From NCBI GenBank assembly GCA_009785765.1, contig WQVP01000004.1, forward strand, positions 1-11,653: DNA of 11,653 nt. Reading direction: 5' to 3'. How positions within the stretch are numbered: the stretch's first letter is position 1; the number at the start of each line of letters is the position of its first letter. This DNA comes from Alphaproteobacteria bacterium. Its GTDB lineage: Bacteria > Pseudomonadota > Alphaproteobacteria > Rs-D84. A model generated the notes under the pieces. That model worked only from the letters and a program-made list of their open reading frames with translations. It was not told the DNA's origin and ran no database searches. Made by a program: the position numbers and the translations under genes. Of this stretch, positions 220-8,404 are shown piece by piece.

Positions 220-1008
220 ATGAAAGTAATTGCATTTGCAAATCAAAAAGGCGGTGTTGGGAAAACCACGACCGCTATTAACATAGGCGCATCTTTGGCC
301 GCTATTAAACGTCGTGTGCTTTTAATTGATCTTGATCCACAGGGTAATGCGGGCACCGGTCTTGGTTTCGTGCGGAATCAACATGCGCAAAGCGTGCATG
401 GCGTAATTATGGGCACGTCGGCGGCACAAGATAATATATTGGCCACGAATGTTGTTGGCATGCATATTATGCCGTCTTCGCCCGCTTTATCCGGCGCCGA
501 AGTAGAGCTTTTGGATATGGAAAACCGGGAATATCGTCTTCGTGATGCTCTTGCCCCGGTGATGGATCATTATGATTATATATTGATTGATTGTCCGCCG
601 GCGATGGGTTTTTTAACACTTAATGCGCTGACCGTGGCAACGGATGTAATTGTGCCGCTTCAATGCGAGTTTTATGCTCTGGAAGGCCTTCAACATTTAA
701 TGGGCAACGTAAGCGAAATACAAAAGAAATGGAATCCATCTTTGAATCTGATGGGGGTTTTGTTGACCATGTATGACAAGCGTAATAACCTTTCCAAGGC
801 CGTAGAAGACGATGTTCGTGCGGCATTTGGAGATAGGGTCTTTAAAACGGTCGTGCCACGAAATGTCCGTATTTCAGAGGCGCCGTCGCACGGAAAACCC
901 GCCCTATTCTATGATATGACATCGCCGGGCGCACAGGCATATTTACGTGTCGCAACCGAAATTGTTGACGCCTCAGGCGACGCCGAGGCACTAGGCATCA
1001 GGCACTAG
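220..1008 (+). CDS. parA: Chromosome partitioning ATPase ParA (Soj)
   Basis: A 262-residue ParA/MinD-superfamily ATPase, which with ParB and parS segregates the chromosome origin on the nucleoid. The deviant Walker A motif KGGVGKTT is at residues 10-17, preceded by the typical start MKVIAFANQ. The A' segment VLLIDLDPQGN and the Walker B segment YILIDCPPAMG follow, and the length is normal for chromosomal ParA. AAGGA at 206-210 gives a ribosome site 9 bases before the ATG. The last residues (about EALGIRH) and the TAG stop at 1006-1008 are encoded by the left arm of the inserted repeat element, so the native C-terminus may have been altered by insertion. Arginine codons are mostly CGT with no AGA, unlike the ORF that follows. 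Identification is secure from motifs and from the parB gene downstream. Confidence 0.96.
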   Translation: MKVIAFANQKGGVGKTTTAINIGASLAAIKRRVLLIDLDPQGNAGTGLGFVRNQHAQSVHGVIMGTSAAQDNILATNVVGMHIMPSSPALSGAEVELLDMENREYRLRDALAPVMDHYDYILIDCPPAMGFLTLNALTVATDVIVPLQCEFYALEGLQHLMGNVSEIQKKWNPSLNLMGVLLTMYDKRNNLSKAVEDDVRAAFGDRVFKTVVPRNVRISEAPSHGKPALFYDMTSPGAQAYLRVATEIVDASGDAEALGIRH

Positions 1009-1014
1009 GCGCTA
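987..1014 (+). repeat. Left inverted arm of element B (4 x 7 bp)
   Basis: The units are GGCACTA, GGCATCA, GGCACTA and GGCGCTA, in perfect 7 bp register. The first copies are translated as the end of ParA, and TAG at 1006-1008 is the parA stop codon. CTAG at the unit junctions puts TAG on both strands. Confidence 0.9.
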
Positions 1015-1032
1015 GTAATTGGAGCAGACAAT

Positions 1033-1392
1033 ATGTTAGTAAAAGATTTGGAAGTTTTTAAAAAGGCCCATAGATTTACTTTGCAAATATATGGCATTAC
1101 AAAACAGTTTCCGCGCGAAGAGTTGTTTGGTTTGGTATCGCAAATGCGCCGTTCTGCATACTCTATAAATTCAAACCTTATGGAGGGTGGAACCAAGGGG
1201 TTTGGCGCAGAATATGCAAGATTTGTTTTGATTTCCAGAGCTTCCGTGTCAGAGTTGGAATATCAATTAGAATTAGCAAAAGATTTAAAATATATAGATA
1301 TAACAAGGTTTAATGAATTGATTGAAGAGTTAAATCAAATAGGAAAAATGTTATCCGCATTACATAAAAGCATAAAAAATACTAATGCCTAG
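1033..1392 (+). CDS. Four-helix-bundle protein, 23S rRNA intervening-sequence (S23/IVP) family
   Basis: A 119-residue protein with the family hallmarks: an opening of type VKDLEVFKKAHRFTLQIY, then FPREELFGLVSQMRRSAYSINSNLMEG in the middle, then EYARFVLISRASVSELEYQLELAKDL. The sequence is almost entirely amphipathic helix, as in the S23/bAvd fold of four antiparallel helices that assembles into a positively charged pentamer. Its biochemical role is not established for the family; relatives lie inside rRNA intervening sequences, and bAvd works with reverse transcriptases of diversity-generating retroelements. GGAG at 1021-1024 sits 8 bases before the ATG. The stop TAG (1390-1392) and the last two residues lie in the right repeat arm. 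Four of seven arginines use AGA or AGG, and the gene is more AT-rich than parA and parB, consistent with foreign origin. Confidence 0.9.
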   Translation: MLVKDLEVFKKAHRFTLQIYGITKQFPREELFGLVSQMRRSAYSINSNLMEGGTKGFGAEYARFVLISRASVSELEYQLELAKDLKYIDITRFNELIEELNQIGKMLSALHKSIKNTNA

Positions 1393-1410
1393 TGCCCAGT
1401 GCCTAGTGCC
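1383..1410 (+). repeat. Right inverted arm of element B (4 x 7 bp)
   Basis: The units are TAATGCC, TAGTGCC, CAGTGCC and TAGTGCC, reverse-complementary in type to the left arm at 987-1014. It provides the stop codon of the four-helix-bundle gene at 1390-1392 and ends 20 bases before the parB start codon. Confidence 0.9.
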
Positions 1411-5954: not shown

Positions 5955-6042
5955 GAAAATAATTTGTCAAGCCGAAAAAAGAAAAGGTTTTTCATCGCAC
6001 AAATTGTCCAATCCCTGTTAAGAATAGGGCGAGAGAGCTTTT

Positions 6043-6105
6043 TAGTAAATAGTAAATAGTAAATAGTAAATAGTAAGTAGTAAGTAGTAAGTAGTAAGTA
6101 GTAAA
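6043..6105 (+). repeat. Heptamer array F (9 x 7 bp)
   Basis: Nine exact 7 bp units: TAGTAAA four times (6043-6070), TAGTAAG four times (6071-6098), then TAGTAAA once (6099-6105). No inverted arm was found between 5955 and 6200, so it is a solitary arm. It lies in the 172 bp gap between the archaemetzincin-like gene and the small accC-coupled gene. The block structure suggests slippage expansion after a single base change. Confidence 0.95.
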
Positions 6106-6126
6106 TTATGTCGGCATCGCTGGTTT

Positions 6127-6498
6127 TTATAAAGATTTCTTTTTTGTGAATTTTGCAAATTCACGGATTGCGGCCGGCAATGGTAAGTTGCATCTTTTGC
6201 AATCTTTTGTGCAGTCAGTACATTCTGTCATGCCAAGCAGCGTGAATGTGATTTCTGGCTTTATATACGTATCAGCCACGACCGATTGGCCAAAGTGTTC
6301 AAATTGAACAACTTTTGGAATAGGTTTAATGTGTAATCGGCCGGAAACCATACCTTTTTTGTCGTCCCCGGTGCCAATTTTATCGGTTAATTCATTCGCA
6401 ATAATAGAATATATAACCTTTTCCGGATGATCAGTCTCTGTTTTAAATGGGACTTTGATTGTATGCCGTGGAAGTTCAAAGCTTGTCTGTACTATCAT
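6127..6498 (-). CDS. Small Cys-cluster protein coupled to accC, unknown function
   Basis: A 123-residue protein not recognised. The preferred start is the ATG at 6498-6496, which overlaps the accC stop in an ATGA arrangement, with GGAAAAAG upstream inside accC. An in-frame ATG four codons earlier (6510) is the alternative and would give 127 residues. The protein is mostly beta-like and polar, with no membrane segment. Near the C-terminus CTDCTKDCKRC carries four cysteines, a plausible metal or zinc-knuckle site, followed by a basic helical tail (FAKFTKKK). Position as the last gene of the accBC transcript suggests co-expression with carboxylase subunits, but a role in fatty acid synthesis is only guessed from context. 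Confidence 0.75.
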   Translation of the reverse strand: MIVQTSFELPRHTIKVPFKTETDHPEKVIYSIIANELTDKIGTGDDKKGMVSGRLHIKPIPKVVQFEHFGQSVVADTYIKPEITFTLLGMTECTDCTKDCKRCNLPLPAAIREFAKFTKKKSL

Positions 6499-7868
6499 TT
6501 CTTTTTCCATTCGTCTTTAAGTTTTTTTTCCAACCAAAGGTTGTCATAATCGCATGCCTGTATGTCCTCGTTCGCAAGCAAACGTTGTTGCAAAGGAATC
6601 GTTGTGTGTACGCCCTCTATGACATATTCATCCAGTGCACGTTGACTGCGACGTATGCATTCCGTACGAGTTGGTGCCCATACGATTAATTTCGCAACCA
6701 TAGAGTCATAGTTTGGCGGTATGCGCCAGCCACTGTACGCCGCCGCATCAATGCGCACGCCAAGGCCGCCTGGGGTTTGGTATGCGGTGACGGTGCCAGC
6801 GCTTGGGACAAAGGTCTCTGGATCTTCGGCATTAATACGAAATTCAATGGCGTGTCCGTTGGACTTTAAATCTTTTTGTTTAAAGCGTAATTTCTCGCCC
6901 ATAGCAACACGGATTTGTTCGCTGATTAAATCAACGTCGTAAATCATCTCTGTCGCTGGGTGTTCAACCTGGATACGTGTGTTCATTTCAAGGAAATAAA
7001 ATTCGCCGTCTTGGTATAAAAACTCCAATGTGCCGGCATTTTGATAGCCCATTTTTTTAATGGATTCCCGGCAAACCTCTATCATATCATCACGTTGTTT
7101 GTCGGTTAAACAGACGGCCGGCGCTTCTTCTATGACTTTTTGGCGGTTGCGCTGGATTGAACAATCACGTTCGCCGAATATAACAACATCGCCGTATTGG
7201 TCGGCTAAAACCTGAAATTCAATATGGCGTGGATGCGTTAATAATTTTTCCATATACAGTTTGTCATCGCCAAAACCGTTCAGAGCCTCTCTTTTGGTGG
7301 CTGTGAATGCGTCTTCCATTTCGTCGGGTGAATATACGGGGCGAATACCTTTGCCTCCGCCGCCTGCAGCTGCTTTTAAAAGAACGGGATAGCCGCATTT
7401 TTCCGCAACATCCAAAGCATCTTCCAAAGTATCAACACTTCCGTCAGAGCCTGGGATAACCGGCAATCCACATTCTTTGGCCGTTAATTTTGCATTAACT
7501 TTATCACCCATGCGATCAACTTGCAGGGCGGTTGGGCCGATGAATATTAATTTATGCTCTTCAACCTTTTTAATAAAATCTGTGCGCTCTGATAAAAATC
7601 CATAGCCCGGATGTATGGCATCAGCATTGGTTAATAATGCCGCCGTCAAAATCGCCGCCTGGTCAAGATATGAATCTTTGGCGGGCGCAGGGCCAATACA
7701 AACCGATTCGTCCGCCAGTTTTACATGCAAAGAATCTTTGTCAGCGGTTGAATAAACCGCAACGGATTTAATCCCCATATCACGGCACGCACGAATAATG
7801 CGAAGCGCAATTTCACCACGATTGGCAATAAGGATTTTTTTGATTTCGTGAGTTTTAGTTTTTTTCAT
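6495..7868 (-). CDS. accC: Biotin carboxylase subunit of acetyl-CoA carboxylase
   Basis: A 457-residue AccC that carboxylates biotin on AccB using ATP and bicarbonate, the first half-reaction of malonyl-CoA synthesis. The N-terminal KKILIANRGEIALRIIRACRDMG is diagnostic. The ATP-grasp segments are AAGGGGKGIRPV, HIEFQVLADQYGDVVIFGERDCSIQRNRQKVIEEAP and EFYFLEMNTRIQVEHPATEMI, followed by the C-terminal domain with GHAIEFRINAEDP. I choose the ATG at 7868-7866 (MKKTKTHEIKK); the open frame runs 12 codons further upstream, but those codons are the repeat arm. The result is that the start codon is preceded directly by the arm of element D, with no Shine-Dalgarno sequence. The accB gene is upstream, separated by 83 bases almost entirely filled by the element. 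Confidence 0.96.
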   Translation of the reverse strand: MKKTKTHEIKKILIANRGEIALRIIRACRDMGIKSVAVYSTADKDSLHVKLADESVCIGPAPAKDSYLDQAAILTAALLTNADAIHPGYGFLSERTDFIKKVEEHKLIFIGPTALQVDRMGDKVNAKLTAKECGLPVIPGSDGSVDTLEDALDVAEKCGYPVLLKAAAGGGGKGIRPVYSPDEMEDAFTATKREALNGFGDDKLYMEKLLTHPRHIEFQVLADQYGDVVIFGERDCSIQRNRQKVIEEAPAVCLTDKQRDDMIEVCRESIKKMGYQNAGTLEFLYQDGEFYFLEMNTRIQVEHPATEMIYDVDLISEQIRVAMGEKLRFKQKDLKSNGHAIEFRINAEDPETFVPSAGTVTAYQTPGGLGVRIDAAAYSGWRIPPNYDSMVAKLIVWAPTRTECIRRSQRALDEYVIEGVHTTIPLQQRLLANEDIQACDYDNLWLEKKLKDEWKKK

Positions 7869-7871
7869 GTG

Positions 7872-7948
7872 CGTGAATCGTGAATCGTGAATCGTAAATC
7901 GCAAGGTGACATAAAAATCGTCTTACGATTTACGATTTACGATCCACG
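7872..7948. repeat. Inverted heptamer element D between accB and accC
   Basis: The left arm (7872-7906) has CGTGAAT three times, then CGTAAAT and the degenerate CGCAAGG. The right arm (7921-7948) has TCTTACG, ATTTACG twice and ATCCACG, the reverse-complement type. A 14-base core separates them. It lies 3 bases from each neighbour: the accB stop is at 7954-7952 and the accC start at 7868-7866. In the accBC transcript it would fold into a hairpin of about 28 bp, placing accC's start codon at its base. Confidence 0.9.
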
Positions 7949-7951
7949 CCC

Positions 7952-8404
7952 TTATTCAATAACAACCAACGGCTGGTCAAATTCAACGGCTTGGGATTCG
8001 GAGATAAGAATTTCACGAACCACACCATCTTTTTCAGCCAAGACTTTGTTAAATGTTTTCATGGCCTCTATTAAACAAAGCGTATCGCCCGCTTTGACAG
8101 ATTTGCCAACCTCTATGAATTTTGGTGCGCCGGGTTCGGCCGATAAATATACAACGCCGACCATTGGGGATTTAATCGCATTGGCTGCGTTCGCTGTGGG
8201 CGAAAGCACAGGTTCTGTTGAAATATGGGCAGGTGCCGCAACAGGTGCAGAAATCATAGGGCCAGCGACGATATTTTGTTTTTTGGAAAGTTCTATTTCA
8301 CGGCGGAAAAGGCCGAAAAGAAGCGAAGTTTCAATCTTCATTTCTGTGATTCCAAGCTTGTCCATTTGTTCGGACATTTTGGAAATTTTGCAGTGTTTTA
8401 ACAC
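7952..8404 (-). CDS. accB: Biotin carboxyl carrier protein of acetyl-CoA carboxylase
   Basis: A 150-residue AccB. The C-terminal biotinyl domain has KSPMVGVVYLSAEPGAPKF (78-96), EVGKSVKAGDTLCLIEAMKTFNKV with the biotin-accepting Lys116 in the EAMK motif, and VREILISESQAVEFDQPLVVIE at the end. A proline- and alanine-rich linker (about 47-75) joins it to a short N-terminal region of about 45 residues. The start used is GTG at 8404-8402, preceded by AAGAGA 8 bases upstream; an internal ATG at codon 10 is an alternative. A strong promoter lies upstream at 8466-8439. It is first of the accB-accC-small gene transcript. Confidence 0.95.
   Translation of the reverse strand: MLKHCKISKMSEQMDKLGITEMKIETSLLFGLFRREIELSKKQNIVAGPMISAPVAAPAHISTEPVLSPTANAANAIKSPMVGVVYLSAEPGAPKFIEVGKSVKAGDTLCLIEAMKTFNKVLAEKDGVVREILISESQAVEFDQPLVVIE

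Follow-up and report, generated by a model that had tools for sequence, protein, structure and literature searches.

The window analysed here, an 11,653-nucleotide stretch that forms one contig (C4) of an alphaproteobacterial assembly (G000; 512,778 bp, 54.6% complete), carries on its plus strand a parA-type ATPase gene (220 to 1008) and a parB gene (1431 to 2261), both identified by profile search and separated by a third open reading frame (ORF). This ORF (1033 to 1392, plus strand) begins with ATG, encodes 119 amino acids and belongs to the S23/IVP family of four-helix-bundle proteins, as given by its scores against PF05635 (124.7 bits; cut-off 33.8) and TIGR02436 (113.6 bits; cut-off 24). 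It is preceded by a GGAG (1021 to 1024), read from the sequence as a possible ribosome-binding site, and is enclosed by two inverted arms, each built of four 7-nt units. The left arm (987 to 1014, plus strand; GGCACTA, GGCATCA, GGCACTA, GGCGCTA) contains the stop codon of the upstream host gene parA, and the right arm (1383 to 1410, plus strand; TAATGCC, TAGTGCC, CAGTGCC, TAGTGCC) contains that of the S23 ORF. An earlier note on this DNA had described a 119-codon S23/IVP ORF inside inverted arms of 7-nt units, and both the description and the coordinates hold.

The two arms are mutually complementary in 23 of their 28 positions. The interrupted duplex of 28 base pairs between 987-1020 and 1377-1411 has a computed energy of −51.8 kcal/mol, a value equalled at 1 of 2,000 random positions of the same geometry in a sample of the genome that includes the window. 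When the RNA from 975 to 1425 is folded, the arms form the terminal stem, with z = −4.2 versus 100 shuffles. The S23 ORF is AT-rich, as the earlier note had it, with a G+C of 0.333 versus 0.479 for parA and 0.425 for parB. The remark that AGA and AGG codons are absent or rare in parA is also true, in small numbers (AGA/AGG counts of 3/1 in S23, 0/2 in parA and 0/1 in parB).

The profile search gave the S23 ORF no match to a profile of any nuclease, recombinase or polymerase, and no transposase profile was matched by this ORF, the only one in the element assigned to a family. It is related to the Avd proteins of diversity-generating retroelements: it exceeds the cut-off of bAvd PF22296 (43 bits; cut-off 40), falls below that of the Avd equivalog NF033474 (48 bits; cut-off 80) and is related to PHROG 3206, an Avd-homologous family. 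The element differs from those systems in that no PF00078 was found in the 54.6%-complete genome and in that the one Avd locus examined (L274) has no heptad arms. A component of a defence system was considered and rejected, with no PADLOC match. At the gathering score, the window contains no Rfam match, which agrees with the earlier proposal that an IVS-like S23 element resides here outside rRNA, between parA and parB.

Short-unit repeats that lack an S23 gene also occur in the window. Array calling detected a 7-nt array of the AAATCTT type upstream of parA (52 to 77) and about nine 7-nt units of the AAATAGT type at 6041 to 6107. A heptad hairpin of the AATCGTG type (7870 to 7948; arms 7870-7904 and 7919-7948; RNA fold −37.6 kcal/mol) sits where the minus-strand ORFs 6495-7904 and 7952-8404 meet. 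By eye, the translations of these two ORFs resemble biotin carboxylase and biotin carboxyl carrier protein. Downstream of parB, a hairpin of 6-nt units (2252 to 2337; GTGTCA type; RNA fold −28.9 kcal/mol) was found by eye, under the threshold of the array caller. Two palindromes, TTTCACATGAAA at 6-17 and TTTCATATGAAA at 2283-2294, which look parS-like, flank the parAB genes on either side. The second of these lies in the loop of the hairpin of 6-nt units, and sites similar to TTTCACATGAAA are also present within the parA-parB spacer of two other loci (L119, L120). A MITE core shared by 6-17 and 2283-2294 was rejected as an explanation, given that the two cores look like parS sites. No common sequence was seen by eye in the hairpin loops.

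S23 genes and their repeat arms

A search with PF05635 returned six S23 genes in the assembly, and all six ORFs lie between inverted arms of short units, the unit differing from one ORF to the next: GGCACTA in the window, and GGGGATA, AGTAATC, TATAGTC, AGTGTTAGTGATT (6+7) and GGTAAGA elsewhere. Scanning 386,527 of the 512,778 bp (61 of 102 contigs, all six S23 contigs among them) revealed 205 short-period arrays, grouped in 36 unit families, versus none in a block-shuffled control. The arrays are of the STRR type, 181 of the 205 having a period of 7 and 128 having an inverted partner at most 450 nt away, versus 12 of 205 controls. The majority of the heptad hairpins are without S23, and their spacers are mostly of 5 to 141 nt. 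Three of the S23 units recur widely in arrays with at most one mismatch (GGCACTA in 21, GGTAAGA in 18 and AGTAATC in 29), and AGTGATT is found in 28 such arrays, one of them exact, in a set that overlaps that of AGTAATC. GGGGATA and TATAGTC are each present in two arrays of the sample. These counts per unit include the S23 arms themselves where they were called.

S23 genes were found in 19 of 60 genomes (that of the window and 18 relatives), with 64 matches in the relatives. The loci read comprise 28 of these 64 and the six of the assembly, including one from an outside alphaproteobacterium (G057), and the inverted-arm score was at least 16 in 32 of these 34. The two others (L007 and L025) proved on reading to have short or eroded arms, those of L007 lying partly within the 3′ end of the ORF.

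To look beyond this family, the best 80 of 568 S23 matches in named genomes were used. Five of them (L188, L196, L200, L201 and L220, labelled Rickettsiales bacterium) were set aside as belonging to the window's own family. The labels of the remaining 75 loci include Acidobacteria, Bacteroidetes, Cloacimonadota, Desulfobacterales, Wolfebacteria, Planctomycetota and WOR-3, and four (L186, L242, L248 and L251) bear alphaproteobacterial or proteobacterial labels and may be kin of the window. Among these 75 from the best 80 of 568, 63 reached a score of at least 16 versus 6 of 277 same-locus controls, and 60 a score of at least 18 versus none of the 277. Arrays are visible by eye in several of the 12 misses (L192, L202, L247, L249, L251). 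The same-locus controls are positions of identical geometry taken 1.2 to 2 kb away and are probably mostly coding, whereas the flanks of S23 are spacers. A different control, in which the upstream side of one locus was set against the downstream side of another (342 pairs), gave a 95th percentile of 15.95, a 99th of 21.8 and a maximum of 25; in part, these high scores reflect the similarity of units at different loci, and the same-locus control is the cleaner of the two. The tie between S23 ORFs elsewhere and inverted short-unit arrays, whose absence the earlier note had named as a refutation, is thus borne out both in the family and across groups. No rRNA was detected by Rfam in the 20 of the 75 loci that were tested, and the element seems to live commonly in operon spacers, which goes beyond what had been claimed. 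On viral contigs (L314-L326), 12 of 13 S23 loci were testable and all 12 scored at least 18, some with identical arms, suggesting that the element may be carried by phages. We hold the anatomy of the element and its spread with high confidence.

S23 or Avd was matched in 32 records among 72,556 plasmids, 28 of the 32 being cyanobacterial by name. All nine cyanobacterial plasmid S23 loci (L265-L273; eight distinct) have repeat arms on both sides, seven called by the array caller and two (L266 and L272) recognized by score or by eye, and six of the nine have an inverted score of at least 16. L270 and L271 have the same arms, the right arm of L267 and of L268 starts within the end of the ORF, and the arrays of L265 are in direct orientation. 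Two further loci (L308 and L309) scored 31 and 18. In the Pseudanabaena locus L265, very long AAAAGCT/AAAAGCC arrays, direct and not inverted, occupy 2301-2926, with more arrays nearby.

The density of arrays was compared among 30 genomes of the family, each contig being sampled to at most 20 kb. It was observed that the 17 genomes with S23 contain 74 arrays in 441,040 bp versus one in 289,389 bp of the 13 genomes without it, an approximately 49-fold difference in density. At least one array was found in 12 of the 17 versus 1 of the 13, and copy number gave a Spearman coefficient of 0.72 (by genus, rho 0.78, n = 13, p = 0.002). The exceptions are five S23-positive genomes that are array-free in samples of 9 to 11 kb and one S23-negative genome (G025, 82% complete) that has a single array. 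Since 10 of the 13 S23-negative genomes belong to three genera (g4, g7 and g11), the co-occurrence amounts to few independent changes. Nine S23-negative genomes outside the family gave no array in 124,084 bp, a figure that includes a 2,198-bp piece of G041 with a G+C of 0.00, probably masked, and none was found in 50 kb of E. coli K-12. The only S23-positive genome sampled outside the family (G057) gave no array in 20,000 bp, although its S23 gene has arms. At the 75 cross-group loci (from the best 80 of 568), 36 arrays were found in 372,409 bp outside the element, distributed over 22 loci.

The repeat unit was compared with the protein at the 66 of 114 loci that have a clear period of 7, keeping own-family duplicates and counting a unit as shared when at most one of its seven positions is mismatched. 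Units were shared by 56% of the pairs with at least 70% S23 identity (16 pairs, one of which, L028/L200, is one locus twice) and by 40% of those with 60-70% identity (45 pairs). This share drops to 11% of 292 pairs at 50-60% identity and to 1-2% below 50%. The overall correlation is weak (Mantel rho −0.12, p = 0.0005, 66 loci). Given that close S23 pairs often share units and distant ones seldom do, a unit tends to be passed on with its protein, and units drift fast.

Flavobacterium was not usable as a test of co-occurrence because S23 is present in 50 of 51 genomes, leaving no contrast between presence and absence. One heptad pattern of the AGC type was found in 9 of these 51 genomes and its backwards control in 10, the control matching as heptads with a different unit would. 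Matches of the pattern partly or wholly adjoin S23 genes in G060, G087, G096, G100 and G110.

Two candidate drivers other than S23 were tried and rejected. For RAYT (PF01797), 3 of 40 genomes matched, all weakly: G007, which has no S23, and two heptad-rich genomes, G012 with a score above the cut-off and G017 with one under it; none was found in G000, G001, G006 and G016. Reverse transcriptase (PF00078) is present in 14 of 40 genomes, ten of them S23-positive, but three heptad-rich genomes (G000, G001 and G017) have no match, nor does the S23-positive G002, which is 97% complete.

Occupied and empty sites

A search for parB in 60 genomes (that of the window and 59 relatives) gave matches in 51, and the best 30 of these 51 junctions were read. 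In 21 of the 30, parA and parB are contiguous, with gaps of −8 to 18 nt and no S23, so the earlier statement that parAB is usually contiguous stands and the S23 ORF is not conserved at this position. All four other genomes of the window's genus belong to this contiguous class. S23 with arms was present at 2 of the 30, in the window's genome and in G006, where the arms have another unit and are eroded and the protein is a distant relative of that of the window (44% identity). At the junction of G012 (L107), a heptad hairpin without S23 occupies the same place as the S23 element of the window, having either inserted independently or been left by an S23 copy whose gene has since disappeared. The junction of G005 contains a possible remnant of an S23-free heptad hairpin, four others have different spacers, and for one no parA was found. 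The empty parA-parB junctions that were read carry no array.

Six plasmid sites with S23 could be compared with S23-free relatives, the flanks being 77-99% identical by piece. At site 1, the element is present in Trichormus and Scytonema and absent from the plasmids of Aulosira (97-98% identity), Nostoc carneum and Microchaete (97%); GTAAT is found at both ends, and Nostoc C052 holds a decayed copy at this place. Site 2 is occupied in three Nostoc plasmids (interrupted in N6) and empty in four relatives that were read (91-95%), while in a fifth, L285, some 0.2 kb of different, S23-free spacer stands there. The repeat at this site is TTCTA, although that sequence resembles the heptad unit. Site 3 lies one gene further on in pNsp_c, contains a different S23 with other arms, and is empty in L281, L283, L284, L267 and L268; it shows a weak repeat of ATG and about 45 nt of extra sequence past the right arm. 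Site 4, between cmr2 and cmr3, is occupied in Picosynechococcus 7003 and not in 7002 (82-91%), with ends that are unreadable. At site 5, Nostoc MS1 was compared with Trichormus and NIES-3756 (80-91%), and TACTAAG is repeated. Site 6, in Calothrix (77-91%), has junction flanks too diverged for the ends to be readable. The insertion point of sites 1, 2, 3 and 5 is at most 2 nt from the stop codon of the upstream gene, or within it.

Two new S23-free hairpins were also seen, one in ATCC 53789 with the same unit as the resident S23 and one, of similar unit, inside an S23 gene of Nostoc N6, both without duplication. Duplications of 5-7 nt thus accompany three of the six S23 sites and a weak one of 3 nt a fourth, with two unreadable, and neither of the two new hairpin sites has any; a target-site duplication of constant length was sought at these eight sites and not found. 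The junctions of the plasmid empty sites that were read are free of arrays. The presence of S23 where the junctions of relatives are empty and array-free indicates that the ORF comes in with its arms. At 10 of 109 loci, left and right arm agree to at least 96%, even though the units of a single arm are not identical, which suggests that one arm was copied from the other. The earlier suggestion that the element is perhaps mobile thus gains from the empty parA-parB sites, which are common, and from those on plasmids, and judged from these sequence comparisons we have good confidence that elements of this class move.

Proposed working and alternatives

The stretch from 987 to 1410 is probably one copy, of about 0.4 kb, of a minimal mobile element that has heptad arrays as its ends and S23 as its sole gene, with S23 aiding its placement. 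The element would have been inserted in the sense direction into the spacer of the parA-parB operon, at the parA end, and would be transcribed by the host operon. Of 116 loci, 84 have S23 in sense and 9 in antisense between two co-directional ORFs, as scored on longest open frames and not on gene calls. This bias is what expression of S23 from host operons would give. The arms may pair into the interrupted stem of 28 base pairs, a possible substrate of RNase III, and the resulting RNA could be tolerated as it is in the rRNA IVSs; processing of the element's mRNA by RNase III, and with it the separation of the parA and parB messages that the earlier note proposed, would be an inference from the fold and from the literature on rRNA IVSs. 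The stop codons of the heptads would terminate reading frames. Indeed, the left arm contains stops in all three sense frames at 37 of 66 loci versus a mean of 13.3 (maximum 20) after letter shuffling, because a period of 7 nt carries one stop into each frame. The S23 protein, as an Avd-like oligomer (2rld and 2gsc, two solved relatives, each contain five chains), may recognize its own class of heptad stem and help to place copies of the element, and of shorter hairpins with similar arms, in new spacers. The 23S rRNA IVSs would then be the rRNA-resident form of the element.

That S23 itself drives the mobility is a point in which we have moderate confidence. The 36 unit families versus six S23 genes, in a part-scanned, 54.6%-complete assembly, count against it, as does the suggestion by the authors of PMC4990558, in the passages cited, that the S23 protein of Coxiella is not synthesized in vivo. 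The missing match to a nuclease, recombinase or polymerase profile, the duplications at some sites only, the scarcity of arrays with GGGGATA and TATAGTC, the few independent changes behind the co-occurrence, the weak overall correlation of unit with S23 identity and the Flavobacterium counts also weigh against the proposed working. It is conceivable, though rather unlikely, that the heptad hairpins are mobile units moved by a host or trans-acting factor, with S23 as cargo in the loop that perhaps binds or stabilizes the hairpin RNA. Such a role would fit the lack of S23 in most hairpins, the appearance of S23-free hairpins at new sites and the absence of a match of S23 to any catalytic domain. 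It does not, however, fit well with the near absence of arrays from the S23-negative genomes of the family (one in 289,389 bp of samples) and their absence from the samples of nine S23-negative outside genomes and 50 kb of E. coli K-12. Units also often agree among close S23 relatives, and the two obvious trans factors, PF01797 and PF00078, do not fit the heptad-rich genomes.

Replication slippage could create and extend heptad arrays, between two of which S23 would land by chance, and array copy number does vary, with Coxiella strains that are one heptamer apart in the cited passages of PMC4990558. Slippage yields direct pairs, however, whereas 128 of 205 arrays have inverted partners versus 12 of 205 controls, and arms at least 96% alike were found in 10 of 109 loci despite non-identical units within an arm. 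The array-free junctions of the empty sites that were read largely refute this explanation, which we regard as improbable in the extreme. It is likewise very improbable that S23 is adaptive in the parAB operon of this lineage, with the arms as a device for mRNA processing or attenuation. The sense orientation, the strong terminal stem and the open frame would be expected of such a device, but the four further members of the genus have no S23 at this junction, and the only other S23 among the best 30 of 51 junctions, that of G006, has 44% identity and other, eroded arms. Moreover, five further S23 copies lie elsewhere in the assembly.

The favoured reading, a mobile element that S23 may help to place, can be set beside known systems. 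23S rRNA IVSs that bear S23 are described in Leptospira, Coxiella, Brucella and Xanthomonas in the cited part of PMC4990558, which states that S23/IVP proteins have no known function. The likeness extends to a sense S23-family ORF, an inverted terminal stem and a similar size (428 nt in Coxiella), and cleavage by RNase III in vitro is described for the Coxiella rRNA IVS (PMC4990558). According to the same passages, GACAGAT heptamers lie just upstream of the start codon in Coxiella, so heptamers beside an S23 gene are already in print for that organism; for Xanthomonas they report a protein pentamer. In contrast, the element of the window is in a protein-coding operon and not in rRNA, is multi-copy, is flanked left and right by heptad arrays whose unit varies from copy to copy, and is accompanied by S23-free hairpins genome-wide. 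By location it is not a 23S rRNA IVS; it has the gene and the design of the IVS and belongs to a mobile class outside rRNA.

The STRRs of filamentous cyanobacteria, hairpin-forming 7-bp repeats of unexplained function in the cited part of PMC2670836, and the TAACTGA repeats of Beggiatoaceae (PMC4679880) resemble the present arrays in being intergenic 7-nt direct arrays, the STRRs often forming hairpins. The MacGregor 2015 abstract (PMC4679880) reports no evident mechanism of transmission, and the passages cited from these two sources name no responsible gene, whereas here the arrays are tied to S23. Among the matches listed for the open PMC literature, outside which lie preprints and most subscription papers, no paper linked S23 genes generally to heptad arrays.

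REPIN/RAYT systems, which combine one gene with many short gene-less palindromic elements, are alike in outline. They differ from the present element, in whose genome (54.6% complete) PF01797 has no match, where the arms are tandem heptads of variable unit and where the gene is S23.

A wider reading, which we put forward tentatively as a possibility that falls short of the probable, is that S23 proteins are mobility factors for a new and very widespread class of minimal transposable element, each lineage having its own unit of about 7 nt, which with a partner build or copy inverted heptad ends, so that the heptanucleotide repeats of cyanobacteria and others and the rRNA IVSs would be products of one system. 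The heptanucleotide repeats lacked an explanation in the cited parts of PMC4679880 and PMC2670836, and the present data join them to S23. With one small gene, short ends, many empty sites and carriers among laboratory cyanobacteria, direct tests are possible. If S23 drives the mobility, these would be among the smallest autonomous elements and would work without known transposase chemistry; if it does not, S23 marks hairpins that are moved by something else. Either outcome changes the annotation of intergenic repeats in many groups.

Some loci place S23 in operons of other kinds. Two of the plasmid elements (L265 and L272) lie within CRISPR operons, between cas6 and cas4 and between cmr2 and cmr3. 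A figure legend of PMC10910872 expands the label 23S rRNA IVP among CRISPR-linked proteins, and this location may be what that label reflects. In table rows of PMC5524665, a four helix bundle protein follows guanylate kinase. On a Geminocystis plasmid (L273, 1554-4280), the S23 element is again located between an AAA-family ATPase gene and parB.
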